A DNA stretch of 64,000 nucleotides, taken from assembly GCA_035771175.1 (NCBI GenBank), contig CM069593.1, positions 43,089,741 to 43,153,740 of the forward strand, read 5' to 3'. The notes beneath the pieces are model-generated. The model worked only from the letters and a program-made list of their open reading frames with translations. It did not search any database and was not told where the DNA came from. Source of the DNA: Paratinospora sagittata. Lineage: Eukaryota; Streptophyta; Magnoliopsida; Ranunculales; Menispermaceae. Each line of letters starts with the position of its first letter. Position 1 is the first letter of the stretch. Positions 34,881 through 61,734 of this stretch are shown here, piece by piece. A program made the position numbers and the translations under genes.

Positions 34881-36112
34881 TTGAATAATCCCCTTTCTAA
34901 GTACCATTTTTCCACAAATACACTATTTTAGGAAAGTACAAATTTATTAGAGTCAAAGACCATCCTAAAACCACTTTTGCTTAACAGTGAGCCTGAAACA
35001 TTATTCCGGATGTCAGGTACATGCAACACGTCGATCAAGGTGAGTTCATTTCCTGAGGTCATCTTGAGAACCACCTTCCCAAGACCTGTTATTGTTGAAA
35101 TTGCTGAATTGCGCATGATTAGATTACGTCATCTTATTGTTGTATAAGAGGAAAACATGTTCTTATCAGCACAAACATGTCGGGTGGCTTCAGTATCAAT
35201 CCACCACTCTCTGGGTTCATCAACAATGTTGGCTTCAAATACCACAGCATATAACATCAGGTCAGTTACATCTTCAGTCTTCTCCTCGGTCATATTGACT
35301 TGATCGTTCTTGGACTTGCCTTTCAATCGAAAATCTTTGGCTTTGTGCCCTTGTTTTTATCAATTATAGCACTTGCCATTGAACTTATGAGATTTGCCTT
35401 TCTTTTTGGCCTGACTATCACCAGTATGCTTGCGCTTCTTATTCATGGTGTGCTTTCCTTCCACAAGGTTAACTTTAGACTCTGTATGGTCTCTAGTTTT
35501 CTTGTCTTGACTCTTATTGTCTTGTTCAATCCACAATCTGATAATAAGGTTCTCAAGTCCCATCTCCTTACGCTTGTGCTTGAGATAGTTATTGAAATCT
35601 TTCCAAGTAGGTGGCAACTTCTGCATGAATCTCATGGAGAATAATCTGTAACTCTTGAACTTGATCCAACACAGTCTTTGAGTCCACCATCTTGTAATCA
35701 AGGAACCTGCTGACCACAAATTTCTTATGGCCAGCATCTTCAGTCTTGTATTTTTTATCCAAAGAATTCTAGAGTTCCTTGACAGTACGGACTGTACTAT
35801 ACACATTATACAGTGTATTTTCTAGCCCATTCAGAATATAATTCTTGCATAGAAAATCAGTGTCTCCATGCTTGAATTGCAGCAATAACTTGTTTGTCAG
35901 TTTCATCATCTCTCAGTTCAGGTTTGTCTTAATTTAGCACCTTGTCCAAGTTGAGGGTGGTCAGGTAAACTAACATCTTCTGTTGCCAACTTTTGAAGTC
36001 AGTGCTAGCGAACTTCTCTGGCTTCTCAGGTTTCATAGAAGTAGTAGTTGGTTTAGGGACAAAGTCTATCTCCATTAGCATAATTGTCTTAAGATTGTTG
36101 ACTGTATGGTGA
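34881..36112 (-). pseudogene. Copia protease-region and gag remnant, right copy
   Basis: The gag ATG is at 36075 (minus strand). Frames 35806-35360 (gag, ending FNGKCYN) and 35326-34928 (DEPREWWIDTEATRHVC, with WIDTEA in place of the usual protease active-site D-S/T-G, then [20 protein letters not shown]) are recognisable but not in one register. It stops at 36112, where it joins an LTR at a GGTG shared by both sequences. Confidence 0.85.
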
Positions 36113-37954
36113 TGTTACGACCGACACAAAATACCACATACGCCACACCTAGAAGTACTTGATACCATGTCATCCTAACCTATCCACGCACTGAATCATC
36201 CTTTGCCCTTGATGTCTTGCCCTGAAAATATTGAGAGTTTGGGTTGAGCAACAACTAGCCCAGTGAATATTCTACCTATGACATTGCATATGCATTGATA
36301 ACAAAACATGACATTAAAACAATATTTATATCATGATGCAAGCAAGTTAATCAGTTATGAATACATGATCAATATATGTTTCATCATATTCATGCATTTT
36401 CACGACAATGCAAATCTCAGTATAAGACCATACTGTCCATCTCCCACCTTTTAGGTAATTATGCGCATTTGCCCCTCATCATGCATCGATAAGGAGTGCA
36501 CAGTCTTCAATTTATCCATTCATAGATCTTAGGAAAGTAAGTGCTTCTTCCCCTCATTATACCCAAGGAGTGCACCGTCCCTACTTTTGCCATTTATAGA
36601 TCCTAGCCAATCGGATTCTCTTAGGAGGGCTTCTCATGTCGGTGACCTATTCAATAGATCCCAAGACATGCTCCATTTCTAAAACTATTTCATGTATTTA
36701 AAACGCATATGTAAGTACAATATCATGCTTACATTTAACTAATTGAATTTATACATATAATACCATACATAAAACCAAAAGTAAGAAATACTCACAATGG
36801 GTACAATCCTATGCTTTCCCACTCATCAAAGTACACCTTTATAGCCCCTACACAAGTTGTTCATAGATTTCCAGCTAATCACTCAAGATCCAGCCACTTT
36901 CTCAATGACAATCTGTACATATCACAATATAATTCACATTCAACTACAGTTTCTAGCTACAACACACAAAACTCCCACTCCAAGCTTAAACAGTCCCTAG
37001 TTGGGACATTCCCAACACAAAACATCAATTTCCTCCAATTTCACCGTCCAATTTATGTACACATCCTAATATAACCTATTTAAGTCAAGATTCATCATTT
37101 AAATCTCATAAACACCCATTTGAACAGCCTCAAACCCTTAGCTGTTTTTGTATACAACAAGGTTTGGGTGTACCCTCAATTCAACACCAATTTTCCTGTA
37201 GATTTTACATGCCATAATCTTAATTTCCATCAAGAACCCATTAAAAACATACTTAAATGCAAAAGCCACAGATTTGGCCAACCCCAGGCCATCACAATTT
37301 TGTTCAACCATCACCAAATCCGTTCAACTTCACATATGTTGAACAAATCAAAGAAAGGAATGGAAATTCGCAAGTTTTGAGCTAAAAGCCACTTACTGGA
37401 GCCTCAAAATTGCTACCCTAGCTCTTCGTTCTCCTTTTCCCCTTCATTTTCCCTTTCTTTAGAACTCAAACCAGCTCAAATGAGCTAAGAATGGGCCAGA
37501 AACCTCTTTTATTTACGTGCAAACTGCTTTAACGACTTATAATTTTTTTTTTCAGAAGGCTCAGGAGCGCGCTCCTCGTTGCCCAGAAACAAATTTGGTC
37601 TTTGTTTCCCCGCAAAAAGCGCGCTTCTCTGCAGGGGAGCACGCTTCTCTGTAGATCTTCAGAATGCATGCTCTTCGATTTCCACCACTAAAGTGCGCTT
37701 CTCCCTAAGGAGTGTACTTCTACTCAAGCTCAAACTTTCACTCTCTGTTTGCCAACACTGGAGCGCGCTCCTTGGTGTCCAAAGTGAATTTCCTAAGTAT
37801 CATGCCTCCAATGTTACAACTAGGGTCTTGGGATTCCTATTACCCTAGAGTGCATACAAATACAATAATTTACGGTCATCAACATGCGTATAAATACGTC
37901 TGACAATATGTACATGTCGATATAAAAGTTTGACTAGAGGTACGAGATGTTACA
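36113..37954 (-). mobile_element. LTR of family LTR-D, right copy, nearly full length
   Basis: On the minus strand it starts TGTAACATCTCGTACC (37954) and runs 1842 bp. The last about 28 bases present in the solo LTR (TGTCGCGACA end) are missing at the junction with Copia. It has repeated GCGCGCT(C/T)CT words between 37560 and 37770. It is inserted in the same FAR1 codons as the other two copies. Confidence 0.85.
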
Positions 37955-38262
37955 GTAAATGTGATCAAAAGCATAAGAACAAGTACATAAACACAATTAC
38001 ATCAAAGTGTAATTGTAAAGCTCAAATAACTGTTAGGCTCACGTCAAATATGGTTTGTGGCACTTGATAAGTGTGAACCTTGAACACAATCATTTGGTTA
38101 ATTGTTTGGAGATTGAAGAGTTTGAAAGCCTTTGGGAAATTTCATAATCCAAGAAAAAGACACTTAATTGTTTTTTTTTTAATAATTGTAACATTATTAT
38201 GTTCAAAAAATATTTTATAGCAATTATTTGTGCTTTATGACATTTATTTGACATACTTTACT
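37955..38262 (+). pseudogene. FAR1-like pseudogene, right copy, mostly deleted
   Basis: 37955-38103 matches 21558-21710 (zinc-finger part). It then jumps to the equivalent of about 22415 (TTGGAGATTGAAGAG), so about 700 bp of transposase core is deleted. The sequence continues across the Ty3-B insertion at 49265. Confidence 0.8.
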
Positions 38263-39561
38263 TGTCACACCCCGCCCGGACGCGCCTTAAACCGGCGGTA
38301 CACTCTCGGACGGGGCGCGCATTTGGAACAATCACAATGGTAATAACAGAGTGCGCAGCGAAAATACAATATACAGTACAAATCTGATTTCATATAATTC
38401 AGAATACTTTTGTACATAAAATGGTCAAGGGAACATACTCCCAAAATCCCCAATGATTCATACAAAGGGTACAAAATGTGGGCCCCATAACCTGCACCCA
38501 GTCCACCCTAATTTCCTGTGAAAGATTTGATAATATTGGAGTGAGCTTAACGCGCTCAGTGGGTAAATAGTGCATGAGTATAACAATTAATAAAGCATAC
38601 TTCAATATCAAATATCTTAAATACACATGTAAGCATCATAATCAATCAATATGTATGTATGCATGACACCGTCACGTATTAATGGTTTGATGAGCGTACA
38701 TCGCCTGAGTTCACGTACAGGTGTCCTTCCCCGGGCGTAGCCAGGTTCTCACTGTACGTCCCTCCTCAGGAACGATGCTCTGGATTCACGTACTGATGTC
38801 CCTCCCCGGCGTAGCCGAGTTCTCATGTACGTCCCTCTCCAGAGAAATAATATGAATAGTGAGCAATGCTTCTAACTATTCTATGAGTCATAAACCATAT
38901 ACGTCCCTAGGTGGTGATATGTATGATGCCAATGCATGAACTAGTTTAGTCTATTAGTCTGGTCTTTTCTTGACATTTATACTGACTTTGTCAACGTCTA
39001 GTGATCCTTATCAGGGTCGGTATCACGACGTGCAAAGTTAGGACATTCAGGTCATAAACATTATTGACATAATGCAGTGTAAATGAATAGTAGACATAAT
39101 AATAATTGAATGTAAACTTTAATAAAAGTTATGAAACACGCAAACCTATGTTTCGTTCCCCACCTTCAGATCTGGTGCTTTTCTCCGGACAGAACTTCGT
39201 TGCACCGCTTTCAGATCTGGCGCTTTCCTCCGGACAGAACTTTGTTGCACCGCACCGGGAGTCTCAAAGACTAAAAACTTAGAATGCGTGGAAAGGAGAA
39301 GAAAAATCACAAGAGAAGGTGATTTGGTGTGAGGAATGAGAAATGACGAGGTTTCTTATATAGAGATTTTTGCGCCTGAACGTTCTGGCATTGCGCCTGA
39401 ACGTTCTGGCATTGCGCCTGAACGTTCTGGCACGCGCCTGAACGTTCTGTCACGCGCCTGAACGTTCTGTCATGCGCCTGAACGTTCGGGCGTTGCCCAA
39501 ATAGTAAAAATTTCAAATAGTATTTTTTTTTTTTTTTTTTTGTGAAATACCGGGTATTACA
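38263..39561 (-). repeat. Ty3-B 3' LTR
   Basis: 1299 bp. In plus orientation it starts TGTCACACCCCGCC and ends CGGGTATTACA. It differs from the 5' LTR mainly by having 6 rather than about 17 copies of a 20-bp repeat. Confidence 0.95.
39371..39495. repeat. 20-bp minisatellite, 6 copies, in Ty3-B 3' LTR
   Basis: Units like GCGCCTGAACGTTCTGGCAT, each with the palindrome AACGTT, sit within about 190 bases of the LTR's transcription-upstream end (U3). Confidence 0.9.
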
Positions 39562-39590
39562 CTCTACCCCCCTTAAAGGGATTTCGCCCT
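39562..39590 (-). promoter_or_regulatory. Ty3-B polypurine tract
   Basis: On the minus strand AAGGGGGGTAGAG abuts the 3' LTR and follows TTTCGAGGGCGAAATCC, the same as in Ty3-C at 61150-61186. Confidence 0.85.
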
Positions 39591-39798
39591 CGAAATCAAG
39601 TCAAGTATGGATGAGGGGTATTGCTTGCGAAGTAGCCGCAGGTTGCTAAGGAGTCACGGCGTGTGTGCATCACGATATCCATTGATATGATTTTCAGATA
39701 TCTGCGTAGTTATTCAAGTGAAACAATGTATGAAGATAAGTGTAAACAATGTTTCATCCTGATATTTATAAGTGAAAATAATACAATGTATCACATCA

Positions 39799-42700
39799 TC
39801 AGGTGGTACTAGAAAACAATTCAGGGTATTTCTGTTTAATTGTGGATTCTAGTTCCCATGTAGCTTCCTCTATGCCGTGGTGATCCCAGAGCACTTTCAC
39901 AAGTGGTATGCTACGTCTCCGTAGGTCGTGAGTTTTTCTATCTAAAATATGTATTGCTTTCTCTTGATACGTATTTCCTTCCTCAACCCGAACCTCGACT
40001 AAAGGGATGATATGCGAAGGATCAGGACGATACTTGCGAAGCATAGATACATGAAAAACGTCATGAACCTTAGGCATGGACGATGGAAGGGACAGACGAT
40101 ATGAAAGTTTGCCAATACGTTCAATGATCGGAAATGGACCGATATACCGCGGGGAGAGCTTTCCTTTGATCCCAAAGCGTTTGACACCTCGGGTGGGCTG
40201 GACTTGTATAAAAACAAAGTCCCCCTTATCAAATTCCAGAGGCTGTCGCCGTTTGTCAGCATAGCTCTTCTGTCGACTTTGTGCAACACGAAGTCGTTCC
40301 TTTACTAGTGTGATCTTCTCAGAAGTCTCTTGAACTAGTTCAGGGCCCAACTGCGGTCGGTCTGCCATATCTAACCAGCATACCGAAGATCGGCAAGGCC
40401 GACCATAAAGAGCCTCGTATGGTGCCATGCCGATACTAGATTGGTAGCTATTGTTGTATGCAAACTCAGCTAGATGCAAATACTTTGCCCATCCGTCATT
40501 AAAGTCCAAAATGCAGCGTCGTAGCATGTCTTCTAAGATTTGGATAAGCCGTTCTGACTGCCCATCAGTCTGAGGGTGGAAGGCGGTGCTCATAGTGATC
40601 TTAGAACTCATTCTATTCTGGAAGCTTTTCCAAAAGTGTGATGTGAATCGAGGGTCTCGATCAGAGACGATCGTGAGTGGTATGCCATGAAGGCGTACGA
40701 TCTCTCTTTCATATAGTTCTGCAAGTTTGGCGGGATTATCCGTGAACTTTATTGGCAAGAAGTGTGCAGATTTGGTAAGTCTGTCAATGATAACCCAGAT
40801 AGCATCTTGCCCTTTATTATTACGAGGTAAGGCTGTAACAAAATCCATTGCGATGTTTTCCCACTTCCATTCTCCAATAGGTAACGGCTGGAGAAGGCCA
40901 GAGGGAAGTCTTCGTTCTGCCTTAACTTTCTGGCAAACAAGACATCGAGCAACGAAGTCTGCAATGGCCTTCTTCATTCCAGAGAACCAGAATTGTCGCT
41001 TGACATCCTGGTACATCTTGTCACCCCCAGGATGCATAGCGTATCTCGAACAGTGCATCTCAGTAAGCACGTCTTTCCGAACCTCGAGATCGTTCGGAAG
41101 ACAAAGACGTTTTTTATAGAAAATGGCTCCGTCGTCAGAGACTGACCAATGAGGAAAGTCTTGCCCGCCGAGTAGAAGTGCTCGTTTCTCCATTAACATA
41201 GGGTCATTGGCTTGAGTAGCTGAAATCTTGCGAACGAGGTCAGAGGTAGTGGACAATTGAGAGAGTCGTGGGCGTGATCCCTCTTCGTTCAGCTGGAGGT
41301 TAAAGTTGTCCATCTCTGTAGCCAACTTCCCCATTTCATAGTTAAGAGTGCAAGCAACATAAGATTTTCTACTCAAAGCATCGGCCACAACATTGGCCTT
41401 TCCGGGATGGTACTGGAGTTGGAAGTCATAGTCTTTCAAGAATTCCAACCATCTTCTTTGGCGGAGGTTTAGGTCTCTCTGAGTGTATATGTACTTAAGA
41501 CTCTTGTGATCTGAGAAGACCTCGAACCGTTCACCGTAAAGGTAATGACGCCATAATTTAAGTGCAAGCACAACAGCTGCAAGTTCCAAGTCATGGGTTG
41601 GGTAATTACCCTCATGAATCTTCAGTTGCCTGTAGGTATATGCAACAACTTGGCCGTCTTGCATTAGTACGGCACCTAAGCCTTGGAGAGAGGCATCGGT
41701 GTATAATGAAAAACTAATTCCATTTCTTGGAGTGATAAGTACAAGTGCCGTCGTGAGGCGTTTCTTCAATTCCTGAAATGATGCTTCACAGGCGGGATTC
41801 CAGATGAAGCGCACGTCTTTTCGAGTGAGCTTGGTCATAGGTTCAGCAATCTTTGAGAAGTCCTTAATGAATCGTCTGTAATAGCCAGCCAAACCAAGAA
41901 AACTCCTAATCTGAGTAACAGTGGTAGGCTGCTTCCAGTTTAAGACTGCTTCAACCTTAGAAGGATCGACCTCAATGCCATTGCCTGAAACTACATGGCC
42001 GAGGAATTGAACTCTCTGCGCCCAAAATTCGCACTTACTCAACTTTGCATACAGTTGGTGTCTTTGTAAGGTCTGGAGGACGATCTTCAAATGTAGTTTA
42101 TGGTCTTCCTCGGTTGAGGAATATATCAAGATGTCGTCGACAAAAACCACCACGAACCGGTCTAAGTATAACCTGAATATGCGATTCATCAAATCCATGA
42201 ATGCAGCAGGTGCATTTGTTAGGCCGAACGGCATAACTAAGAATTCGTAATGACCGTACCGAGTTCTGAATGTCGTCTTGGTGATGTCTGACTCCCGGAT
42301 CCGGAGTTGGTGATAACCGGACCATAAATCAATCTTAGAGAAGTATTTGGCTTCTCGAAGTTGGTCGAATAAGTCATCGATCCTGGGCAACGGATATCTG
42401 TTCTTGATGGTGACGTTATTCAACTTGCGATAATCGATGCAAAGTCGTAACGAACCATCCTTTTTGCGAACAAACAGAACTGGAGCGCCCCAGGGTGATG
42501 AACTCTTTCGGATGAAGCCATTACGCTCTAATTCCTTAAGTTGTTTGTCTAATTCGACCAGTTCAACATTTGACATTCTGTATGGTGGAATTGAGATAGG
42601 CCCTGTCCCAGGTATGAGGTTGATCTCAAAATCGAATTCCCTAACTGGAGGTAGACCAGGAAGGTCATTAAGAAAAACGGTTGGGAATTCAGATACGACT

Positions 42701-44517
42701 GGAACATCGCGTACTTCAGGTGGGTACAGAGCTGGTGATTCATTGCCGTCGCCAAGAGACAACGCTCGAAGTTGTGACTTGAGAAGGGCAACTGTGGATT
42801 TGTGTATCCATTTCCTTGTTCCCTGAATCTTGACAAACTCACCTGTAGGCAAAGTTAACTGAACGTGCTTGTTCATACCGTCGATCTTTGCATTCAGTGG
42901 TGCGAGCCAGTCCATGCCGAGGATGATGCCGAAGTCATCAAAATCCATCACAAAAAGATTGGCATATATTATCTGTTCGGACATTCGAAGCTCACATCGA
43001 GAACACTGCAAATTCACGTTAGTACCCGATCCGAACGGTAATGTGACATGGAGTGTGATGTTTGTGGGTTCAGGATGCAGGCCTAAATGTCTTACCAATG
43101 TTGATGATATAAAAGAATGCGTAGCACCTGAATCAAACAAAACATGCACCAATGTATTGAACAAAGGAAAGGTACCTTCGACGACATTATTGTCTGGGAG
43201 GGGTTGGTGAGCGATGGCATATGCTCTGCCCTGGTTCCGTTGACCCTGGTTCTGCTGGGTCTGCCTGGGTTGGGCATTAGCAGCAGGTGGTGCTTGTTGG
43301 ACTGGAATAGCAGGAATAGGGTGCTGAAGGTGCGGACAAAGATGTTTGACATGGCCCTTCTGGCCGCAATTGTAACAAGTCGGCCTGTACTGCTGATTGT
43401 GTTGCTGGCCATTCTGATAATTCTGCTGGCCTTGTTGATGGTGGTGTCGACCACCACCTCTGCCATTGCCGTTGCTACGGCCACCTCGTCCATAACGACC
43501 ACCACGGCCATGGTTGCGGAAACCCTGATGGTTAGGGGTAGAAGGTTCAGCCGCAGGTGTTGTGGCCTCAATCTTAGAAACTGGGGCTGGGAGGGCTGGG
43601 TTTTGATTGTAGTAGGGCTTTTTCTTGTTGCCCTGTTGGGAGCCTTGTTGGGAAAACGTTGCAGGCCGTTTGCCCTTATGCATTCTCTGTTCCTGTAAGA
43701 GTTTCTCTTGTTCAAAGCTCATGGCCTTGTCAACAACCTCCTTGTAAATCTTGAGATCCAAGATCGATAAGGCTTGTCGAATGTCATGGCGAAGACCATT
43801 ATAAAATTTCTCACTCTTATCTCGCTCCGTTGAGATGGTGGAGAGAGAGTAGACTGATAATTCTTTAAATTTTCCAGCATATTCTCTGACTGTTATGGTT
43901 CCCTGATATAACTTAGCAAATTCCTGGCGCTTCTGCTTTGTCACCGCGCTGGGAAAATACTCATCAATGAACATTGACTCAAACTGTTGCCAAGTCATAT
44001 CTGCTATATTGACCCTTGGGTCTTCTTTCACTGTAATCCACCATGTGTTTGCGGCACCAACAAGTTGGTAGGTTGCTAGTGGAATTTTACGAGTCTCATC
44101 GACTCCCATTGCATCAAGAGCCTTCTTGGACTCATCCAACCACTTTTGCACCTCATCAGGATCAATGGTGCCATCGAAAGTAAGAGGTTGTAGCCGCTTG
44201 TATTTAGTAATCTGATCGATTTGAGCTTCTGAGCCAAATTTTATAGATGGTTGAACTGTGGCAACTTGACTGGCGGCGGTCTCAAGAACGGCAGTTTGAA
44301 CAGTAACCTTCATCGCCTCAATAAATCCAGCGAAAAAAGTTTCAATGCTTGAAGGCATGGCAAAGGGTGCGGGTGGGGGTGGTATTGCCTGCCCAGATGT
44401 AGTGGCAGTGTTGGGTGTGGCCTGTGCTGTTGTCTGAGGCGGCGGTTCCTGAATCTCAGGAGGTGCCTCCACTGCTGGACGAACAACACGTGGCCTTCCT
44501 CTCTTCCTGGTTTGCAT
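39799..44517 (-). CDS. gag-pol: Ty3-B gag-pol polyprotein, intact
   Basis: A single uninterrupted 1572-residue frame. The gag core is at about 110-280 ([30 protein letters not shown]), with a zinc knuckle at about 380 ([14 protein letters not shown]), protease at about 460 ([12 protein letters not shown]), RT at about 792 (FVDDILIYS), and RNase H at about 940 ([10 protein letters not shown]). The integrase zinc region is at about 1155-1195 ([17 protein letters not shown]). The DDE residues are near 1222 (IAMDF), 1283 (SDRDPRF) and 1321 (DGQSERL). A C-terminal chromodomain ([18 protein letters not shown]) closes it. All key residues look present, so this copy may be autonomous. The start is the ATG in [10 protein letters not shown]. 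gag and pol share one frame with no stop or shift between them. Confidence 0.97.
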
Positions 44518-45571
44518 TGTCGCACTGGCAAAAAGAAAAGGAAAACCAAGATTTAGGAACTGTAGCCAAGGATAATGTTATAATATGCTCAGCAACAATG
44601 TCGAGAGTACTGCAATAGTAAAATCACCTATTTTTCTAAGTATAGTGGAAGGTTTTTGTTGAGGAATCAAAGAACTTATATAACTCGTATGTTTGGCCAT
44701 GGTGTAAAAACAAGGTTAGAACGTTTATATAATAAGTACAAATCCTTGCAAGTATTTAAAATGATTTGGTTGTGGTCTTTGTGAACATACATATATTTTA
44801 TTGAAAAGTCATACGAGTCATAAAAAGTCTAAGATTTGCCTTGGTAAATAACCTGATCTAACGTTCTATCGCAATCTTATGCATTCATACGCTTACTCTT
44901 AGTCTGTTCGATTATTATCCAAGTTCATATGTCTCATACCACATGAATTTAGTAATAAGGGTGGAAACCAAGTTAAGTTGTATGAACACGGTCTCTAAAA
45001 ACATTGGCAGAATAGAAGTTCACTAATAGTATCGTCCAAATTTACTCGTCCCATACCGTGTAAACTTAGTGATAATATTAGTACTGCAACTTTCTCCAAA
45101 TGTTTCTTTTCACACAAGGTCATGGGTTTTCTTACTTCCACATTTTATTTAGTATCATCCAATTTTGTTGTGTCCCATACCACTCCAAAGTTAGTGATAC
45201 AAAAGAAAGAATAGTTGTAAGTCTGCCCACCAAAGATAGTCTGTAAACAAAACAATTCATCATCACGCCTGCAGCCAACACTTGCTGACTTATCAGCACG
45301 CCCGTCACGCCTGCAGCCAACACTTGCTGACTTTTTACAACACGCTTTCCTGTTCATCCGCACGGGTGTCGGCTGTTCATTAAGACGTGCTCCTGTTCAT
45401 TAGCACGCCCCCCCTGTTCATCCGCATGATTTGTTGTTCATCCGCACGCGTGTCGGTTCATCCGCACGCTTGTTGGTTCTTTTGAGTGAGTTCTACTACT
45501 GCGAGTCTTATTTGTTTGGGGGTGGTGGAGTTGGTGATTGAGTTTCGGGGAGAAAGAAGATAAGAAATATT
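44518..45571. other. Ty3-B leader between gag start and RKD gene, with tandem repeats
   Basis: No coding frame is supported. Three imperfect copies of a roughly 115-bp unit lie at about 44910-45215, each with (T)CCCATACCN then AGTTAGTGATA-like words. A 28-bp direct repeat (CACGCCTGCAGCCAACACTT start) lies at about 45265-45335, and short GTTCATCCGCACG repeats at about 45353-45475. It would serve as retroelement 5' untranslated RNA on one strand and as RKD upstream region on the other. No clear TATA box was found. Confidence 0.6.
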
Positions 45572-46968
45572 ATGGCAGGAAGAGGAGGAGGAACAGCTCC
45601 GGCGCCGAAACAGGATGAGTTGCAGCCACATCCGGCGAAGGAGCAGCTGCCCATCATTTCTTACTGCACTACCAGCCCTCCACCATGGCGTCAGTTCCGT
45701 ACTTTTTTTTTTTTTTTTATTGTGATTCACTGTTGTTACTGATGATGATGATGAACTTCACAGCTAACAGAGACATGGTGGATATTGGAGAAGACCCATT
45801 TCTCTTCTCAAACCAATTCCACCCACTTGATTTCAGCGGTTCAAGTTTTGGTAGCAGCCCATATACGCGGGAGCCTCTTCTGGAATATGGTTTACAGCCC
45901 TTCATGAATTCTTCAATGGATGAAGATGAGCCTGAAGTTCAAAGTGAGTATCAATGCTCAATCCAGGTTATATTCTACTTTATTATTAACAGATTGGCAA
46001 TTTCATCCTCTTTGTGGTGATTAATTTGCTATTGTAATTTGTATAGGGAGTATGAGGAGCAGTAGCGGATGGGAGAAGGACTTTGGAGTTTTGAATGAAA
46101 TGAGGATTGGATTAGAAGCGGAGAAACAACAGATTGTCAGGCATGAAAATGGAGAGGGGATGATTAGTTGCAACAGTACTGGTAGTGATCATGTGGAATC
46201 GATGACGAAACTGAAGAGTGAGTCTCTATCACGCACTACCATTTCACGCTACTTCTACATGCCCATATCAGAAGCTGCAAAAGAACTTAAGGTAGGCTTA
46301 ACCTTGCTGAAGAGGAGGTGCAGGGAATTGGGCATTCGTAGATGGCCTCACAGAAAGTTGATGAGCTTGCAGACCCTTATCAAAAATGTTCAGGTATTTA
46401 TCATCATTATATATTGATCTTTATAAGTATTTTGATGTCTTAACTTGGGGAAGTTATGATTAATATAATGACTTCTTAATTAATTATGTACTGCAGGAAA
46501 TGGGTGAAGGAGAAGGGGTTGGTGGAGATATGAAGATAAGAGACGCTTTTAGGTTATTGGAGGAAGAAAGGAAATTGCATCACAGAAAGTTGATCAGCTT
46601 GCAGACCGTTATCAACAATGTTCAGGTATTTATCATCATTATAGATTGATCTTTATAAGTATGTTGAGATCGTAACTTGGGGAGGTTCTGATTAATATAA
46701 TTACTTGTTAATTAATTATGTACTGCAGGAAATGGGTGAAGGAGAAGGGTTTGGTGGAGATATGAAGATAAAAGACGCTTTGAGGTTATTGGAGGAAGAA
46801 AGGAAGTTGATGGAAGAGATGCCAGAGGTGGATCTTCAGGAGAAAACAAAGAAAGTAAGGCAGGCTTGCTTCAAGGCCAACCACAAGAAAAGAAAGGAAA
46901 CCAACTGCAAGGAAAGAAAGGAAATGATGCTAGAGTGGCACCCGGTTACTATTTCTCGTTTAAATTAA
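45572..46968 (+). CDS. RKD: RWP-RK domain (RKD) transcription factor captured inside Ty3-B, antisense to the element
   Basis: Five exons with GT-AG introns: 45572-45689, 45764-45943, 46047-46393, 46497-46625, 46729-46968. Together they give an unbroken 337-residue frame from ATG to TAA. The RWP-RK domain in exon 3 has the family order: [20 protein letters not shown], then [16 protein letters not shown], then [15 protein letters not shown] proteins are plant DNA-binding factors that control egg-cell and embryo-related programmes. Upstream of the domain is an acidic region (MDEDEPEVQ), downstream a coiled, Lys-rich tail. Exon 4 repeats the end of the domain plus the following exon because of a 232-bp tandem duplication that keeps frame. 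The gene lies between the primer site and gag of a minus-strand element, so its introns are antisense to the element's RNA. No selection test was done, so function is unproven, but nothing seen breaks it. Confidence 0.88.
46349..46812 (+). repeat. 232-bp tandem duplication in the RKD gene
   Basis: Unit 1 (46349-46580) and unit 2 (46581-about 46812) both run from CACAGAAAGTTGAT through an exon end, an intron and the next exon to GAAAGGAAATTG or GAAAGGAAGTTG. They differ by scattered substitutions. Splice sites are kept in both, creating an extra 129-base in-frame exon. Confidence 0.9.
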
Positions 46969-47724
46969 CAGTTTATCAACAATTGCTTTTTTGAAGAGTT
47001 ATCAGTAGTTACTTTTTTTGATGTTTATGCCATCATGAAATTTTTTTTATTAGTAATTGGATGCATGTATGTCGTATTCGCATATGAATAGATAGACATA
47101 TTTAATGATAACTATAGTTCCCATAAATCAACTATATATAAATCATATATAGTTGGTTTTAATCCAAATCTTAACTATATATAGAAGTCATATATATATA
47201 TAGTTTTAGATATATCAAATAAATTATTTTTCAAATTTTTATGATTATTTTGTTTTGTAATAAATTGTTTTCGAAAAATACATTTTTTTTTTTTTTTTGA
47301 AATTTTTTTTTTTTTTCGAAATTTTATTTTATTTTATTTTATTTTTTTCGAAATTTTATTGTCTTTGTTTTTCCTCGAAAAATAAAAATTTATTTCGAAT
47401 AAATATTTTTCGAATAAATATTTTTCGAAAAATAAAATTTTTTCGATTTTTTTTTTTTTTATATTTTTATACGTACCTCATATACACTAATGTATATAGA
47501 TACATATATTCAATAATAACCACACGTATAGTTTCTAATAAATTTTGACTATATGTATATTTAAATCAAACTATATAAAAATCATATAGTTTTCTAGATA
47601 TATATTTAATACAAATCTCCACTATATATAATTGATGTATGTATATATAGTTCTAGAGATATATATATCTAATAACATTTTTCTTTCCCTAATTTGGTAG
47701 ACTTGGGCGGGCCGTGGACCGTAC
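46969..47724. other. AT-rich region of Ty3-B leader, 3' of the RKD gene
   Basis: No gene. It contains a hairpin-forming CAACTATATATAAATCATA stretch (about 47128-47155), several TATATAGTT words, and a block of TTTTTTCGAAA and AATAAATATTTTTCGAA repeats (47270-47460). Similar TATATAGTT palindromes recur at 47565-47690. Confidence 0.6.
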
Positions 47725-47736
47725 GCTCTGATACCA
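47725..47736 (-). promoter_or_regulatory. Ty3-B primer binding site, initiator-Met tRNA
   Basis: On the minus strand TGGTATCAGAGC lies 5 bases inside the 5' LTR. Confidence 0.9.
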
Positions 47737-47741
47737 TTAAA

Positions 47742-49264
47742 TGTCACACCCCGCCCGGACGCGCCTTAAACCGGTGGTACACTCTCGGACGGGGCGCGCA
47801 TTTGGAACAATCACAATGGTAATAACAGAGTGCGCAGCGGAAATACAATATACAGTACAAATCTGATTTCATATAATTCAGAATACTTTTGTACATAAAA
47901 TGGTCAAGGGAACATACTCCCAAAATCCCCAATGATTCATACAAAGGGTACAAAATGTGGGCCCCATAACCTGCACCCAGTCCACCCTAATTTCCTGTGA
48001 AAGATTTGATAATATTGGAGTGAGCTTAACGCGCTCAGTGGGTAAATAGTGCATGAGTATAACAATTAATAAAGCATACTTTAATATCAAATATCTTAAA
48101 TACACATGTAAGCATCATAATCAATCAATATGTATGTATGCATGACACCGTCACGTATTAATGGTTTGATGAGCGTACATCGCCTGAGTTCACGTACAGG
48201 TGTCCTTCCCCGGGCGTAGCCAGGTTCTCACTGTACGTCCCTCCTCAGGAACGATGCTCTGGATTCACGTACTGATGTCCCTCCCCGGCGTAGCCGAGTT
48301 CTCATGTACGTCCCTCTCCAGAGAAATAATATGAATAGTGAGCAATGCTTCTAACTATTCTATGAGTCATAAACCATATACGTCCCTAGGTGGTGATATG
48401 TATGATGCCAATGCATGAACTAGTTTAGTCTATTAGTCTGGTCTTTTCTTGACATTTATACTGACTTTGTCAACGTCTAGTGATCCTTATCAGGGTCGGT
48501 ATCACGACGTGCAAAGTTAGGACATTCAGGTCATAAACATTATTGACATAATGCAGTGTAAATGAATAGTAGACATAATAATAATTGAATGTAAACTTTA
48601 ATAAAAGTTATGAAACACGCAAACCTATGTTTCGTTCCCCACCTTCAGATCTGGTGCTTTTCTCCGGACAGAACTTCGTTGCACCGCTTTCTGATCTGGC
48701 GCTTTCCTCCGGACAGAACTTTGTTGCACCGCACCGGGAGTCTCAAAGACTAAAAACTTAGAATGCGTGGAAAGGAGAAGAAAAATCACAAGAGAAGGTG
48801 ATTTGGTGTGAGGAATGAGAAATGACGAGGTTTCTTATATAGAGATTTTTGCGCCTGAACGTTCTGGCATGCGCCTGAACGTTCTGGCATGGCGCCTGAA
48901 CGTTCTGGCATGGCGCCTGAACTTTCTGGCATGGCGCCTGAACGTTCTGGCAGGCGCCTGAACGTTCTGGCATGGCGCCTGAACGTTCTGGCATGGCGCC
49001 TGAACGTTCTGGCATGCCTGAACGTTCTGGCATTCGCCTGAACGTTCTGGCATTGCGCCTGAACGTTCTGGAATTGCGCCTGAACGTTCTGGCATGCGCC
49101 TGAACGTTCTTGCATTGCGCCTGAACGTTCTGTCACGCGCCTGAACGTTCTGTCACGCGCCTGAACGTTCTGTCACGCGCCTGAACGTTCGGGCGTTGCC
49201 CAAATAGTAAAAATTTCAAATAGTATTTTTTTTTTTCTTTTTTTGTGAAATACAGGGTATTACA
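47742..49264 (-). repeat. Ty3-B 5' LTR
   Basis: 1523 bp, with ends TGTCACACCCCGCC and AGGGTATTACA in plus orientation. About five substitutions were seen against the 3' LTR, plus the larger minisatellite. Confidence 0.95.
48851..49198. repeat. 20-bp minisatellite, about 17 copies, in Ty3-B 5' LTR
   Basis: Units GCGCCTGAACGTTCTGGCAT with small variants (TGTCAC, GGAATT). It has about 11 more copies than the 3' LTR, accounting for nearly all of the 224-bp length difference between the two LTRs. Confidence 0.9.
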
Positions 49265-50835
49265 TTACTTTTATTATTTATTTATTTATACAAAATAATA
49301 GTGGAGGGAACAATTTTTAGGATGTTCACCAACTTTAGTACAGTGACAATCATGAAGTCACCAATGTAGCATCAAGTCATTTGGTAATTAAAATACTCAT
49401 AAACTATTTCACTTATTTGGCTCAAAGTTTTGACAACCTTATTTCAATACAGGACATGATGGTATCTTCACAAGTTTCATATCAATCACAATGGAGCAAC
49501 CAAGGCATCTATAACTTTCGTTAGTCTTCTTTTCTAGACTTGATGCATAATGTTGGTAGCTCCTAGGTATTACGGTTTGTACATTGTAATTATGATTTCC
49601 TCATCTATGTGTTGATCAAGTTAACATATTATAAATTACGACCATTTTACAATGCTCACGTTTGATGGAAAAGACATGGTAGTAACAAAGAAGGCGATGT
49701 GATGTGAGGTGCTTTGGAGAAGTGGTTTTCAAATTGAGATGGTAGAGCTTTTTTGTTTGCATGTTGAATTATAAAGTTTTTGTCTTTAATTATGTAATGG
49801 AACATTGTTTTAGGTTGATTAATAGAAATGGGTTCTTGTTTTTTTCTTTCAGTGTTATTTGGCCATAGCAGTGCATCCTCGTTGATATTTCTAAATTTTT
49901 TATGAATTTGTTTTAAGTATTCACTGCAGAAAATATGCCACACTAAAGTATGAAAAACATAATCTTTGATGATAAATTATTTTTATTATAAATAAAAATA
50001 ATTTAATTAATTTTTATTTAAAATAATAAAAGTATTTTTCTAAAGTAATAAAATTACTTTTATTAGAGGAATAATATTATTTTTTTATCAAAAAGTAAAT
50101 TTATTGTTTATTAAAAACAATTTAGTACTAAAAATATGATAAATTAAGTTTTTTTATAATAATAATTTTACCAAAACTAATAGAATTAGCTTTTTAAAAT
50201 AGTAGAATTATTTTATTAAATAGAATTTAATTAAAAAATAATATTATTTTTAAGCGATAGTAATATAAACTTGTTATTTTATAAAAATAATATTATTAAT
50301 TATTAAAAGTAATCTTATTAAAATATTAAAATTAATTTTTATTAAAATATTAAAATTAATTTTTATTAGAATTAAAATTATTTTATTAAGACAATGACAT
50401 TATTTTTTATCAAAAACAATTTTTTTATTAATAATAAGAAAATTAATTTTTATTAGAATTAAAATTATTTTATTAAGACAATGACATTATTTTTTATTTT
50501 TTATTAATAATAAGAAAATTAATTTTTATTAAGTAATAAAATTATTTTTATACAAATAAGAAAGTAATTTTAAAATGTAATACTAAAATCATTTTTTTGT
50601 TAAAAAATAAAAATAAAAATAGTTTTTTAGCAAAAAGAAAGCCTTTAGCGTCGCACTTTACGTTTGGCATTAACTACCTGACTAGTTGAAAATTTTTGAA
50701 CTTGTCAACGTAACCAACAAAACTAGGCCACCTCAAAAGCCACCTCACTAGTCATGGAATTTGTGGTGAGAATTTCACTGGAGGCAGCGTACGTTTAGCA
50801 TTTGTCTTTCTCAATAAACCCAATTTGTCTTCTTA
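49265..50835. repeat. FAR1 flank and AT-rich repeat block, right copy
   Basis: 49265-49920 continues the flank interrupted by Ty3-B. 49920-50640 is the AT-rich block starting CACTGCAGAAAA. 50640-50820 carries the TTTAGCGTCGCAC end. A 60-bp stretch (ATTTTTATTAGAATTAAAAT type) is locally duplicated near 50330-50500. No coding frame is supported. Confidence 0.6.
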
Positions 50836-50850
50836 AAAAAAATAATTGCA

Positions 50851-50856
50851 TTTATT
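50851..50856 (-). promoter_or_regulatory. Polyadenylation signal AATAAA of the right TFIIS-N gene
   Basis: About 100 bases downstream of the stop, conserved with the left copy. Confidence 0.4.
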
Positions 50857-50956
50857 TCATTAGCAAACAATGTTTTACAAAATGTTCATAATACACAACT
50901 GTATGTGCAGTTCCTTCCATATCCATGTAAACCAACATTTGACTGAAAAAAACTTG

Positions 50957-53886
50957 TCACCACATTTTTATGGATGGTTGCATATTAACTCTTATTTTCC
51001 TTCGATACCGTCGAGGTTGGTACCGGATTCGTGGTCTTGTGTCGGGAGCTTTGTCTTGATTAGAGTTCTTCTTTTCTAGGAGTTCATGGAAATCAAAGAA
51101 CTTTACACTCCTTTGCTTCTTTGCTGTGTGCCATAAGTACACATTAGATTGACTCCAAAAGATTTATAAAGTGAGAAGGAAAATGTGGAGGAAGAAGAAA
51201 CATGAAGGGCAAGTAGTAATTACCATTTTCAGCTTTTTGATAATCTTCATATAATTTCCTCTTGGAACCTTCAATCTTCTGTAGAATTAAGTTCTCATCA
51301 TCGTGGTGTTCATCCTAAATCATCATATTGGGGAGAGGGATTTGAGTGATGGATAGAATGTATGTGGTAGTGTTTGGACTAAAAATAAGAGAGATTAATT
51401 GTAATCATTATAATATATACTTACTTGTTTATCAGGAATTGGGACACTGAAGCAAGACACATGTTTCTGCAACTCTATTTGATTGTTCTTCGTGTTATCT
51501 GAAGCAACCAATAATGGTATGTAGAATTAATTTAGATAGTTCAATGTTAAGACAAGGTAGAAGGTTGAAAGAAAAGCAACATGTTTGAGTCACTGTTACC
51601 TCCTGTGGTTGCAGAAGCCTCCAACTCCAACCATTTGTCTACTAGTTTTTTCCACTCCCTGCAAATTAAATGTAAATTATAATTATAGATTCATAAATTT
51701 CAAAGTTTATCAAGAAGAAAGTGTTACTTGGAAGTTTACTAATTCCATACTTGATGAGACTGTTGGAAAAGTGACGGAGTTTCTTCGATTTGAACGTCTT
51801 TCTGATAGAATTTACAGTGTACCCAATCATAGTTTCCTGAGGAAGACAAATTATATATATAACTGACCTATCTGTTAAACTGCTTTCAATTAGTTTTAAG
51901 GAATAGACGAAAACCTCAAGAATTTGCTTGGAGTCTACTATCTTTTGAAGCTTTCTCAGTGATTCCAACACTTCTGGTTCAGTCTGCAATAATTTAAACA
52001 AAAACAACCAACCACCAACCATATATTACATGTAAAGAAATCATACAACATTAGAAATGTATTATAGACACGAAATATAATGATTAAGAGTGGCATCTAT
52101 ATTACTTTGTTCAAAAAGAAAAAAAACCTGCAAATGATGGTTGGAGAGAATATTCTTCAAGGACAGAATGTCTTCTTTCTTCTGGCACTCCAAGTCTACA
52201 TGATTGATATGGCCTTCGGGTTTCTTTTGTACATCTTCTTGAATGACAGTCTCCTTTGGGAGTTCTGCTTGCAGTTCAGTGGCCTCATTGATTTTTTGTT
52301 TCTTTGCTGTATATATACATAAAGTAAGAATATGTCAATACTCTAATGCATAATATATAGAGTATTGAATTAAACTTTACCAAGTGAAGAAAGTCAAAAG
52401 AAGACAAACTAACCATTTGCTGCAGCTGTCAATGTGTGATGGCCCTCTTGAGATTTTCTTTTGGAATTCTCATATTCGAATCCATCAGTGCACTTGGTTT
52501 CCTACAAATTTTGGGGATGATCATTAGATGAATTTGAACTTTCATTTATATAAGTAATACTTAATAAACGAGCTCATACTAATTATACTTCATTCTTTAC
52601 TTAATTAATGCTTACTTGCTTAGTAGGAAGAGTACTAGAGGTCTTGGTATTTCTGATGGCAAATATCCTCCTCTTTGAAGGAGTAGCAATGTGCTTGAAA
52701 GCAAATTCTTGCACAGTTGACACAACAGAATGCTCCTTTTCCTTCTGGGTATTCTGAGATGTAGAAATAGAATTCAATATGTTAATGCTAATTAGGTAGA
52801 GCTATTAAATAATATATATATTTGTACCTGATCATCCAAGTGAGAATTATGGTTTTGATGCCCCTCTTGAGATTTTGTTTTGAAATTCTCAAATTTCAGC
52901 CCAGTGAAGTTTTCATCAGTGGACTTTGCCTACAAATTGTGGGGATGATAGTGAGATGGGTGTTTAGTTAATTAATACCCATCCTCTATTTAATTAATAC
53001 TTACTTGCTTAATAGAAAGAATAGAATTCCTAATGATGAATGCCCTGTTCTTCTGTGACTTTGGTTCAGTAACTTTCGTGGTATTGGAATTTCCTTTTCC
53101 TAGTTTGTCATCGGGTAGACAAATTAATGCTAACTAGCTAAAACTGTTAAATAAGTGTTCAGTGATTATATTTTGTACTTACCAGGTTGATCATTATTAG
53201 TAGTAGTGGCAGCAGCACTAACGTTCACTACTCTCTCATATAGCATTTTGCACCATCCACTGATATTTCAAATTCAAGGGAAAATAATTAATTATTTTGA
53301 ATCAAACTAAGATAAACATGATTGCATGCATATGTAGTAACTAATTAACTTGGAACTAAAATAATAAAGAGATATTGGTAGAATTTTGCATATATTTACT
53401 TGATGATATTGCTGGCAAGGTAACGAACTTGTTTCGATTTGGATGTACATTTGATATAATCAACAGTACGTCCAATTGTAGTTTCCTGTAGAGATAAATT
53501 TATGTATTTTAACTAACTAAACTTTTCACCAAGTCTCTTAGTTTTTCACTAGAGATTTCTCTATTTTACTATTTTCAATACCACCAATAAACTAATGTCG
53601 ACAAGGATTAAAACCTTTAGATATTGCTTGGAGACTTCCATCTTTTCAAGCTTTCGTAATAATTCTACCAACTTTGTTTCAGACTGCAATATTTAATGCA
53701 AATAACCATTACAACAACGATAATCATTTAGTTGCCAACTATAATATTTTATTAATCCAAGAAATAAAAGAAGTTAAATGACACAAAAGTTAAAAGAGTT
53801 TAGGGTTTATAGGGTTAGGGTTTAAAATTTTAAACCTGAAGATGATTAGAGAGAAGATATTGGATGGTGAAAATATCTGGATTCAT
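50957..53886 (-). CDS. TFIIS N-terminal (LW) domain protein with two tandem LW domains, MED26-like, intact copy
   Basis: Fifteen exons on the minus strand give an unbroken 476-residue frame: 53886-53836, 53683-53615, 53485-53400, 53259-53183, 53099-53005, 52929-52828, 52753-52616, 52501-52414, 52306-52128, 51983-51915, 51836-51751, 51658-51600, 51498-51425, 51314-51224, 51123-50957. All introns are GT-AG. Two LW domains are seen: exons 1-4 (LLRKLEKMEVSKQYLK, ETTIGRTVDYIK, NGWCKMLYERV) and exons 9-12 (LRKLQKIVDSKQILE, ETMIGYTVNSIRK, EWKKLVDKW). The second and third exon of each domain have equal lengths (69 and 86 bases), so the gene grew by internal duplication. The C-terminus is basic (RPRIRYQPRRYRRKIRVNM). 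LW domains bind transcription elongation factors; a Mediator or elongation role is inference. Family members usually have one LW domain. Confidence 0.85.
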
Positions 53887-57836: not shown

Positions 57837-58493
57837 TGTAATACCCTGTATTTCACAAAAATAAAAATAAAAATTGGGCATACGTGCCCGAAAGTCCAGG
57901 CAAGCCGCCCGGAAGTCCAGGCACATGCCCGGAAGTCCAGGCACATGCCCGGAAGTCCAGGCAAGCCACCCGGAAGTCCAGGCACATGCCCGGAAGTTCA
58001 AGCAACCTGCCCGAAGGTCCAGGCACATGCCCGGAAGTCCAGGCAACCCGCCCGAAAGTCCAGCCACATGCCCGGAAGTCTAGGCAGCCCGCCTGGACTT
58101 GCAGGCTCCAAAACATCTATATAAACCAAACCCCTCTCTTCATTTTTCACACCAAATTCACTCCAAATTGTGATTTTTCCTCCTCTTTTCACTCATTTTG
58201 AGTTTTTAGTCTTTTGAGACTCTCTGTTCGAGACTCTCGGTGTAGTGCGACGAAGTTCTGTCTGGAGGAAAGCTCCAGATCTGAAAAAGAAGAAGTTCTT
58301 ATCTGAAGGTGGGGAACGAAACATAGGTTTGCGTGTTTTATAACTTTTATTAAAGTTTACATTCACTTATTATTATATCTACTATTCATTTACACTGCGT
58401 TATGTCATATAATGTTTATACTGTCGCACTTATACCTGTACACTTGGAATTCACGTATTATACTGTTATAATGCCGGATTTGTGGTCAATCTT
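57837..58493 (+). repeat. Ty3-C 5' LTR, 3' part deleted
   Basis: Starts TGTAATACCCTG. Shares ATCTGAAGGTGGGGAACG and following bases with Ty3-B LTRs and with 61187 onward. It breaks into pol at about 58493. Confidence 0.85.
57885..58100. repeat. About 20-bp minisatellite, 10 copies, in Ty3-C 5' LTR
   Basis: Units like GCCCGGAAGTCCAGGCACAT, alternating with AAGCC/AACCC linkers. A closing inverted unit (GCCTGGACTTGCAGGC) follows. The proline-rich open frames across it are by-products of the repeat. Confidence 0.9.
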
Positions 58494-60558
58494 GACTGGC
58501 TATTACAAATGCTTCATCAAGGACTTCTCAAAGATTACTAAACCTATGACCAAGCTCACTCGAAAGGACGTGTGATTCATCTGGAATCCTGCCTATGAAG
58601 CATCATTTCAGGAATTGAAGAAACGCCTCACGACGACACCTGTACTTATCACTCCAAGAAATACAATTGGATTTTCATTATACACCGATGCCTCTCTCCA
58701 AGGCTTAGGTGTCGTACTAATGCAAGAAGGCCAAGTTGTTGCATATGCCTCGAGGCAACTGAAGATTCATGAGGGTAATTACCCAACACATGACTTGGAA
58801 CTTGCAGCTGTTGTGTTTGCACTGAAGTTATGGCTTCATTACCTATACGGTGAACGGTTTGAGGTCTTCTCGGATCACAAGAGTCTTAAGTACATATACA
58901 CTCAGAGAGACCTAAACCTCCGCCAGAGAAGATGGTTGGAATTCTTGAAAGATTATGACTTTCAACGCCAGTACCATCCCGAAAAAGCCAATGTTGAGGT
59001 TGATGCCCTGAGTAAAAAATCGTGCGTTGCTTGCACTCTTAACTTTGATACGGGGAAGTTGGCTACAGAGATGGAGAACTTTAATCTACAGCTGAACGAA
59101 GAGGGACCAAGACCACCACTCTCTCAATTATCAGCCAACTCTGAGCTAGTTCGAAAGATTTCAGCTGCTCAAGCCAATGACCCTATGTTAATGGAAAAAC
59201 GAGAACTTCTACTCAGCGGACAGGACCTTCCTTACTGGTCGGTCTCAGAAGACGGGGTCGTTTTCTATAAAAAAACGTCTCTGTCTACCGAACGATCCTG
59301 AGGTTCGAAAAGAAGTGCTTACTGAGATGCACTGTTCGAGGTACGCTATGCATCCTGGGGGTGACAAAATGTACAAGGATGTCAAGTGACAATTCTGGTT
59401 TTCTGGAATGAAAAAGGCAATTGCAGACTTTGTTGCTTTATGTCTCGTTTGCCAGAAAGTTAAAGCAGAACGAAGACTTCCCTCTAGACTTCTCCAGCCG
59501 TTACCTATTGGAGAATGGAAATGGGAGAACATCGCAATGGATTTTGTCACGGCCTTACCTCAAAACAATAAAGGGCAAGATGTTATCTCGGTTATCATTG
59601 ACAGACTTACAAAGTCTGCACACTTCTTGCCAATAAAGTTCACGGATAATCCTGCCAAACTTGCAGAACTATATGAAAGAGAGATCGTACGCCTTCATGG
59701 CATACCACTCATAATCGTCTCTGATCGAGACCCTCGATTCACATCAAACTTTTGGGAAAGCTTCAAGAGTAGAATGGGTTCTAAGATCACCATGAGCACA
59801 ACATTTCACCCTCAGACTGATGGGCAATCAGAGTGGCTTATTCAAATCTTAGAAGACATGTTACGATGTTGCATTTTGGACTTTAATGACGGATGGGCAA
59901 AGTATTTACATCTAGCTAAGTTTGCATACAACAACAGCTACCAAACTAGTATTGGCATGGCACCGTATGAGACTCTCTATGGTCGCTCTTGCAGATCCCC
60001 GGTATGCTGGTTATATATGGCAGATCGATTGCAGTTAGGCCCTGAACTAGTTCAAGAGACTTCTGAGAAGATCACACTAGTAAAGTAACGACTTCGTGTT
60101 GCACAAAGTCGACAGAAGAGCTATGTTGACAAGAGGAGACAACCTCTAGAATTTGATAAAGGGGACTTTGTTTTTCTAAAAGTTCAGCCCACAAGAGGTG
60201 CCAAACGCTTTGGGATCAAAGGAAAGCTCTCCCTGCGGTATATAGGTCCATTTCAGATCATTGAACGTATTGGCAAACTTGCTTATCATCTGTCCCTTCC
60301 ATCGTCCATGCCTAAGAGGTTCATGACGTTTTTCACGTATCTTTGCTTCGCAAGTATCGTCCTGATCCTTCGCATATCATCCCTTTAGTCGAGGAGAAAG
60401 CGATATAGATTTTAGATAGAAAAACTCAAGAACTACGGCGACGTAGCATACCACTTGTGAAAGTGCTCTGGGATCACCACGACATAGAGGAAGCAACATG
60501 GGAACTAGAAGCAACAATTAAACAGAAATATCCTGAATTGTTTTCTAGTACCAACTGA
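58494..60558 (+). pseudogene. Ty3-C pol C-terminal pseudogene (RNase H, integrase, chromodomain)
   Basis: Starts at GYYKCF in the RT/RNase H connection. RNase H ([14 protein letters not shown]), integrase zinc region ([17 protein letters not shown]), DDE core (IAMDF, SDRDPRF, DGQSEW, where the usual Arg after Glu is Trp) and chromodomain ([18 protein letters not shown]). Breaks: TGA at 58573-58575, an extra A near 59270, TGA at 59387-59389, TAA at 60086-60088, a frameshift near 60315 and a TAG near 60408. It is clearly dead and close to the Ty3-B pol. Confidence 0.92.
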
Positions 60559-60655
60559 TGATGTGATACATTGTACTATTTTCACTTATCAATAAAATGA
60601 TGAGACATTGTTTACACTTATCTTAATACATTGTTTCACTTGAATAACTACGCAG

Positions 60656-61153
60656 ATGTCTGAAAATAATATCAATGGATATAGTGATGCACACACGCAT
60701 TGGCCTCCTTGGCAACCTGTGGCTACTTCTCAAGAAGCAGAGTCAAGTCACAACTATTTTGCATCACCAACTCCGTCACCACACAGATAGCGATCATTAT
60801 CGCCAGAGCGTGCATGACTTTTTTGTAACAATCCCGTGCCCTCATCCTAGCAAGACCTTCTACCAAAATTGCCAGGCGGCAGGATTCGAGCAACTGCACG
60901 AGAAAGTATTCCACTGCTCAACTTACCTCCCCTCAAACGATGTAACCAGCACCCTCCACCACCATCTGTTATGCAAAGGTTGGAATCTTCAGAGGACGAG
61001 TCTGATTCCATTTGCTCACCATGGTTTTACGATGATGACGATTCCATCGGCCATAGTGCTATTCAGGGACCATTCAAGAACTATCCTGAACTCGCAAAAG
61101 ATGACGCCGACAGTGAATCTCAAGCAGATAACCATCATAACTACTTGAATTGA
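60656..61153 (+). pseudogene. Accessory ORF between pol and 3' LTR of Ty3-C, about 165 codons, three in-frame stops
   Basis: The frame begins at ATG 60656 (MSENNINGYSDAHTHWPP) and stays in register to TGA at 61151-61153. It is broken by TAG, TGA and TAG (near 60788, 60812 and 60851), each one C-to-T step from CAG or CGA. The product would be Pro/Ser/Arg-rich in the middle and acidic at the end (SSEDESDSICSPWFYDDDDS). No family is recognised. In Ty3-B the same place (39562-39798) keeps only the first codons, with the ATG changed and the rest deleted. It could be an extra gene of this chromovirus subfamily or a captured sequence. Confidence 0.5.
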
Positions 61154-61228
61154 TTTCGAGGGCGAAATCCCTTTAAGGGGGTAGAGTGTAATACCCTATA
61201 TTTCACAAAAAAAAAATTGGGCATACTA

Positions 61229-61345
61229 GCCCGGAAGTCCAGGCACATGCCCAAAAGTCCAGGCACATGCCCGGAAGGCCAGGCAAGTCGCCCGGAAGTC
61301 CAGGCACATGCACGGAAGTCCAGGCAGCCCGCCTGGACTTCGAGG
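61229..61345. repeat. About 20-bp minisatellite, 5 copies, in Ty3-C 3' LTR
   Basis: Same unit as in the 5' LTR (GCCCGGAAGTCCAGGCACAT), but half as many copies. Confidence 0.9.
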
Positions 61346-61734
61346 CGCCAAAACATCTATATAAACCAACCCCCCCTCTTCATTTTTCACCCCAAATTCA
61401 CTCCAAATTGTGATTTTTCCTCCTCTTTTCACTCATTTTGAGTTTTTAGTCTTTTGAGACTCTATGTTCGAGACTCTCGGTGCAGTGCGACGAAGTTCTG
61501 TCGGGAGGAAAGCGCCAGATCTGGAAAATGAAGAAGTTCTTATCTGAAGGTGGGGAACGAAACATAGGTTTGCGTGTTTTATAACTTTTATTAAATTTTA
61601 CATTCAGTTATTATTATATCTACTATTCATTTACACTGCATTATGTCATATAATGTTTATACTGTCGCATTTATACCTGTACACTTGGAATTCACGTATT
61701 ATACTGTTACAATATCAGATTTGTGGTCAATCTG

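Follow-up and report, generated by a model that had tools for sequence, protein, structure and literature searches.

An intron-bearing RKD gene lies antisense in the 5' leader of a young Ty3/gypsy element of Paratinospora sagittata

A 64-kb window of the Paratinospora sagittata genome (Menispermaceae; contig CM069593.1, positions 43,089,741 to 43,153,740), the whole stretch of DNA analysed here, contains a structurally complete element of the Ty3/gypsy group (38263-49264, minus strand), and the 5' leader of this young insertion holds, in the opposite orientation, an entire RWP-RK gene of RKD ancestry with an intact spliced frame. The explanation that we favour, with moderate confidence, is that the element captured this gene before it last jumped; its antisense position may have preserved the introns on the way. 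RKD factors have been associated with egg-cell identity, and RKD genes are tied to clonal embryos from seed tissue in citrus and mango. If the favoured explanation is true, a mobile and complete RKD copy would constitute a route for spreading a reproductive switch.

Anatomy and age of the element

The element is enclosed by perfect target-site duplications (TSDs), TTACT, at 38258-38262 and 49265-49269, as a first-pass annotation of this sequence had claimed. Paralogous copies of its flank near 3680 (minus strand) and 22570 (plus strand) each hold one TTACT and no element, and these two empty sites are direct proof of insertion. The 5' long terminal repeat (LTR; 47742-49264, minus strand, 1523 bp) contains a TATA box (TATATAA) at 48841 and an array of 21-bp tandem repeats at 48851-49194, and its alignment with the 3' LTR (38263-39561, minus strand, 1299 bp, TG...CA ends) gives 1290 matches, 9 mismatches and 224 gapped positions. 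The earlier description of the LTRs as near-identical is borne out for substitutions (99.3% identity) and fails for length, the 224-bp difference being a gap in the tandem array. This U3 array comprises ~17 units in the 5' LTR and 6 in the 3' LTR (39370-39496), which implies that its length changed since or during insertion; three of the nine mismatches fall inside it, and are possibly differences between repeat units. The divergence of the pair, 0.0070, corresponds to ~0.27 My at 1.3e-8 substitutions per site per year, a rate taken from PMC10011142 (papers given by PMC number are cited throughout for excerpts of their text).

Gag-pol (39799-44517, minus strand) is intact, as had been proposed, in that its 1572 aa run without a stop through gag, zinc knuckle, protease, reverse transcriptase (RT), RNase H, integrase and a weak chromodomain. 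These assignments come from the open reading frame (ORF), from Pfam and from matches to characteristic short motifs, including catalytic ones. At 5 of 162 conserved RT-RNase H columns the element is off consensus, and 37% of relatives (67 usable of 120 fetched) show at least as many departures; the count is ordinary, and pol is not decayed. The integrase core is weak (21.1 bits against a cut-off of 32.6) and the zinc-binding and SH3 parts are strong. The RT part has relatives at ~65% identity from many plants, and the gag part distant relatives only (21 proteins, the best by E-value 28% identical, from a search limited to scoring the 7986 candidates with the most words in common).

The Pfam domains stand in the Ty3 order (gag-protease-RT-RNase H-integrase) within one polyprotein, and the element also has the TG...CA LTRs, 5-bp TSD, primer-binding site (PBS) and polypurine tract (PPT) of Ty3/gypsy elements. 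The PPT adjoins the 3' LTR at 39562-39580 (minus strand); the PBS-like TGGTATCAGAGC lies five bases inside of the 5' LTR at 47725-47736 (minus strand), and is putatively of the tRNA-Met type. In the excerpted survey of PMC6317226, most chromoviruses have a tRNA-Met primer site and non-chromoviruses do not use one. The chromodomain match (PF00385, E 0.0014, 18.9 bits) lies below the curated cut-off of 25.1 bits, so the chromovirus part of the initial label is likely rather than proven.

The RKD gene and its ancestry

Strictly between PBS and gag, and on the plus strand, lies the RWP-RK gene (45572-46968), the five-exon antisense gene with a 337-residue frame that had been annotated there. Its exons (45572-45689, 45764-45943, 46047-46393, 46497-46625 and 46729-46968) are separated by four GT-AG introns of 74, 103, 103 and 103 bp; the intron 1 donor is a choice, as an alternative at 45699 also leaves an open frame, of 340 residues. 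The gene is flanked on the gag side by 44518-45571, the gag-proximal leader and possibly the promoter and 5' untranslated region of the RKD gene, in which no ORF of at least 80 aa lies wholly inside and a 90-aa minus-strand ORF (45458-45730) overlaps the edge. On the other side, from the RKD stop to the PBS, the leader (46969-47724) is mostly very AT-rich (GC 12.5-23% in 200-base windows across 47000-47699). Just 5' of the RKD start, short direct repeats (45263-45333 and 45339-45481) include a perfect 29-bp pair and several GTTCATCCGCACG-like units, and could possibly be promoter or capture-border sequence. A 24-bp tandem duplication (46877-46924) near the C-terminus lengthens a basic stretch of the protein.

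The RWP-RK domain (PF02042, residues 160-207, E 2.4e-22, 79 bits against a cut-off of 29.3) is the sole Pfam domain of the protein, covers profile positions 2-49 of 49 and, judged from exon lengths, is encoded wholly by exon 3. NLPs, the other RWP-RK type considered here, carry a PB1 domain. Among 2363 candidates scored, 475 relatives were found at E<=1e-3, and the best 120 of these all have the RWP-RK domain, many being named RKD; a single RWP-RK domain and grouping with RKD-named proteins together identify the subfamily. At E 1e-3, no solved structure matched the sequence of the protein. We selected 53 relatives from the best 120 of the 475 for a tree, in which the sister of the window gene is a Stephania cephalantha RWP-RK protein, named hypothetical (support 95/92). 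This protein is also the nearest relative among the matches listed (63% identity over 202 columns), and the pair is nested in a group with Thalictrum and Coptis. Stephania belongs to the Menispermaceae, in the Ranunculales; the placement would by itself suggest a host in the Ranunculales, the order to which Paratinospora belongs.

This placement bears on the proposal that RKD is a long-standing accessory gene of the element family, kept because its DNA-binding protein or its antisense transcript would benefit the element, a role suggested for the antisense ORFs of Retand and Grande. Precedent exists in TRP28, an antisense ORF with a predicted DNA-binding domain found in 97% of surveyed Retand clusters (PMC11963269, in the part excerpted), and the frame of the window gene has survived since an exon duplication against a neutral chance of only 0.057 (see below). 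Yet the gene, judged by protein sequence, forms no separate lineage, being sister to the Stephania protein inside the Ranunculales; its introns are of host type; and the exon differences described below carry no sign of constraint. On balance we regard a standing accessory role as improbable.

A duplication older than the insertion

Exon 4 and intron 4 arose from a 232-bp direct duplication (46342-46805, plus strand), the two units of which (46342-46573 and 46574-46805) are 93% identical; the first-pass annotation makes no mention of it. As exon 4 is 129 bp long, skipping it keeps the frame open and gives 294 residues in the usual RKD layout. Between the introns of the units 9 of 103 sites are different, whereas the LTRs have 9 differences in 1299 positions (Fisher p 1.2e-6); after correction the divergences are 0.093 and 0.0070, a ~13-fold excess which at the rate used above dates the duplication to ~3.6 My and the LTRs to ~0.27 My. 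The duplication is thus far older than the present insertion, and arose either in the donor gene or aboard an earlier element.

The differences between the exon parts of the units are all nonsynonymous (8/8 in the ungapped units, 6/6 within the array bounds of Tandem Repeats Finder), which has a chance probability of 0.20 or 0.30, respectively, and so indicates neither constraint nor excess. Of all 17 differences between the units, 3 are transitions and 14 transversions, T/G changes making up 8 of the latter, where the LTR pair has 5 transitions and 4 transversions. Together with the repeat-rich setting, the odd transversion excess might be taken as a mark of an artefact of assembly or annotation, in which a chimeric join placed the RKD gene inside the element. 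The mutual consistency of LTRs, TSDs, PBS, PPT and two empty sites, and the GT-AG boundaries of all four RKD introns, make such an artefact very improbable.

Frame integrity and constraint

In neutral simulations (substitutions only, transitions weighted 2) the RKD frame and splice sites stay intact with a probability of 0.80 over the LTR age and of 0.057 over one lineage since the exon duplication. The first value renders intactness uninformative on the time spent inside this element copy, and the gene, described initially as intact, is so in the sense of an unbroken frame and not as a sign of function. The second points to constraint, or to recent capture, in the longer time since the duplication.

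Taken together, comparisons with Stephania and other relatives offer a mild sign of looser constraint on the window gene. In relative-rate tests of the whole protein with exon 4 skipped, using 8 outgroups, the window gene has 15-23 lineage-specific changes and Stephania 12-20, with no significant acceleration (p 0.19 to 0.85). Within the conserved core, window-specific changes are the more numerous with 6/6 outgroups (10-14 against 5-7, as raw counts); the branch of the window gene is the longer in the tree (0.54 against 0.35); and the gene departs at 4 of 54 conserved columns, as many or more departures being seen in 5 of the 120 relatives listed. Most likely the RKD copy is at present a passenger, whose expression, if any, would be driven by the sequence that flanks it.

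Proposed capture before the last jump

The course of events that we favour would begin with an ancestral element gaining a genomic stretch that bore an RKD gene, either through antisense read-through RNA followed by recombination or template switching, or through a DNA rearrangement beside an RKD locus, both routes being drawn from general retroelement biology. Element RNA would start in the LTR at 47742-49264 and pass through the antisense strand of the RKD gene before reaching gag. As the RKD splice signals would then lie on the wrong strand of this RNA, an unspliced copy would be reverse transcribed, and the element would have inserted at its present site with the RKD gene aboard. That an antisense position keeps introns from being spliced out, as the first-pass annotation reasoned, is sound by established retroelement biology, and we infer that it accounts for the survival of gene and introns here. 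The frame is intact and four introns are present, unlike the case in spliced retrocopies, although some further intron of the donor may have been lost.

An alternative that we consider unlikely, while giving it real weight, is that the RKD copy entered the resident element after it had landed, as a nested transposon, as repair filler or as a segmental copy, and never travelled with it. Nested and duplicated repeats abound in the window, and an intact frame is what a recent arrival would have, given the chance of 0.80 over the LTR age. However, the leader parts flanking the gene share no direct match longer than 11 nt (AT-rich; simulated range 9-15) and no inverted match longer than 9 nt (simulated range 9-14), and no Helitron-like end surrounds the gene by our own criteria. 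Neither match exceeds the simulated range, so there is no sign of nested transposon insertion. Further, an LTR divergence of 0.7% leaves little time for a later event. The short time since insertion and the lack of any trace of later insertion are our reasons for preferring capture before the last jump, in which we place moderate confidence.

Several observations nevertheless weigh on the other side. The RKD-bearing element is known here from one copy, as insertion after landing would have it, and the sister element in the window (57837-62672, plus strand) is without leader, gag, protease and RT. The captured segment has no defined break points, and the evidence of the reading frame fits capture before and after the last jump alike. 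Lastly, the same missing insertion signature leaves room for a nested transposon and for an insertion by DNA repair after integration.

Compatible with any of these origins is a function as a natural silencing cassette, in which element RNA would pair with the RKD mRNA of the copy or of its donor, and the resulting small RNAs would damp RKD expression. The ~1.4 kb gene does lie antisense and downstream of the LTR promoter (TATA box at 48841), and regulation by way of double-stranded RNA that antisense transcripts form has been proposed (PMC7264820, in the excerpt cited). We consider such a putative function unlikely. A bolder extension of capture before the last jump is that an autonomous family mobilises a whole, intron-bearing and expressible egg-cell and embryo transcription factor, protected by its antisense orientation, each insertion seeding an extra RKD gene with new regulation, and that cargo of this kind is common yet invisible to ORF-based surveys. 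We think this unlikely as it stands. Scans of viral contigs for gag-pol, RKD and the LTR-PBS junction found no relative, and scans of prokaryote genome contigs for RKD found none; plant DNA is not expected in either set, and these results carry little weight.

Neighbouring repeats

The sister element is ~91% identical to the RKD element in the shared pol and the long LTR block, and less so in the tandem array. It runs from within its 5' LTR straight into pol near the RT-RNase H border, in broken frames, and relative to the RKD element it lacks ~6.6 kb, a loss that begins inside the 5' LTR and extends to the end of RT; because this region is missing, it is of no use as a leader comparison. Near 31930 the window has a copy of its empty site. 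Elsewhere in the window, two direct repeats of 2962 bp (7537-10498 and 14893-17854), 100% identical, surround a pol frame (11268-14849), and probably represent the LTRs of another Ty3/gypsy element, a very recent one. One large repeated segment is present in three related copies, at ~48-5928 (minus strand), ~20371-24058 (plus strand) and 36105-38263 with 49264-52813, the first of which includes a MULE transposase ORF (3801-4247); the empty sites of the RKD element come from copies of this segment.

Comparison with known systems

The premise that transposons sit at the RKD genes of nucellar embryony holds for citrus, where a miniature inverted-repeat transposable element lies at the RWP gene, and not for mango, where the promoter insertion is chloroplast DNA (PMC10709545, as excerpted). 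The further suggestion that the window holds a new kind of cargo is too strong, as published cases exist of antisense extra ORFs, of host-gene capture and of RWP-RK genes that overlap intact LTR elements. Some Ty3/gypsy elements are well established as carriers of antisense extra ORFs, including gene23 of Grande, RIRE2 and TRP28 of Retand (PMC7264820; PMC11963269; PMC6317226), and the survey of PMC6317226, based on getorf ORFs of at least 250 codons, has a category of its own, eORF-5'R, for the reverse 5' position. The window gene is alike in being extra coding sequence opposite to gag-pol in a Ty3/gypsy element, and lies in just that position, reversed and upstream of gag. The ORFs described in these sources, however, are single open frames, mostly between pol and the 3' LTR and mostly without a clear host homologue, whereas the window holds an intron-bearing gene of host type in the 5' leader. 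Because it is spliced, and its longest plus-strand ORF from a start codon is 121 aa, it has no single frame of 250 codons and would be missed by the survey as excerpted. More broadly, antisense intron-bearing host genes inside LTR elements evade screens based on a single long ORF or on the loss of introns.

Host genes inside LTR elements are likewise well documented. In excerpts of PMC5664825, on retroduplicated NLR genes inside LTR elements of pepper and other plants, the genomes of six species are reported to have 1398 to 3898 genes each within such elements; in the pepper genomes every multi-exon NLR in such elements had fewer introns than its parent and was read as a capture of spliced mRNA, unclear multi-exon NLRs lacking parents having been left out. 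The window gene is likewise of host type and inside an LTR element, but introns were lost there and four are present here. In maize, 425 intact LTR elements carry gene fragments, from at least 189 captures (PMC2774510), and Bs1 is a named case of transduction, in which an LTR element acquired host gene sequence (PMC7264820); as far as these excerpts go, the captures are reported as fragments, whereas the window element holds a complete gene frame. Ty3/gypsy elements of Phalaenopsis carry an ORF for an AlkB RNA demethylase with in vitro activity (38 and 23 consensus sequences in two genomes; PMC9289625, as excerpted), and thus represent a functional domain of host type fixed in a Ty3/gypsy lineage, compared with one RKD copy known from its sequence. 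The same paper screened 121 angiosperm genomes, and the section of its text consulted names no RWP-RK domain. In pearl millet, RWP-RK genes lie within or overlap intact LTR elements, and a link to expansion of the family has been proposed; the part of that report drawn on here does not state their orientation, introns, position or type (RKD or NLP). In the open-licence PMC literature, no intron-bearing RKD gene inside an element is announced in the titles or abstract openings of the matches listed. A captured host gene and antisense extra coding sequence are, in sum, already known kinds of cargo, and what is unusual in Paratinospora sagittata is a whole, intron-bearing RKD gene in the 5' leader.

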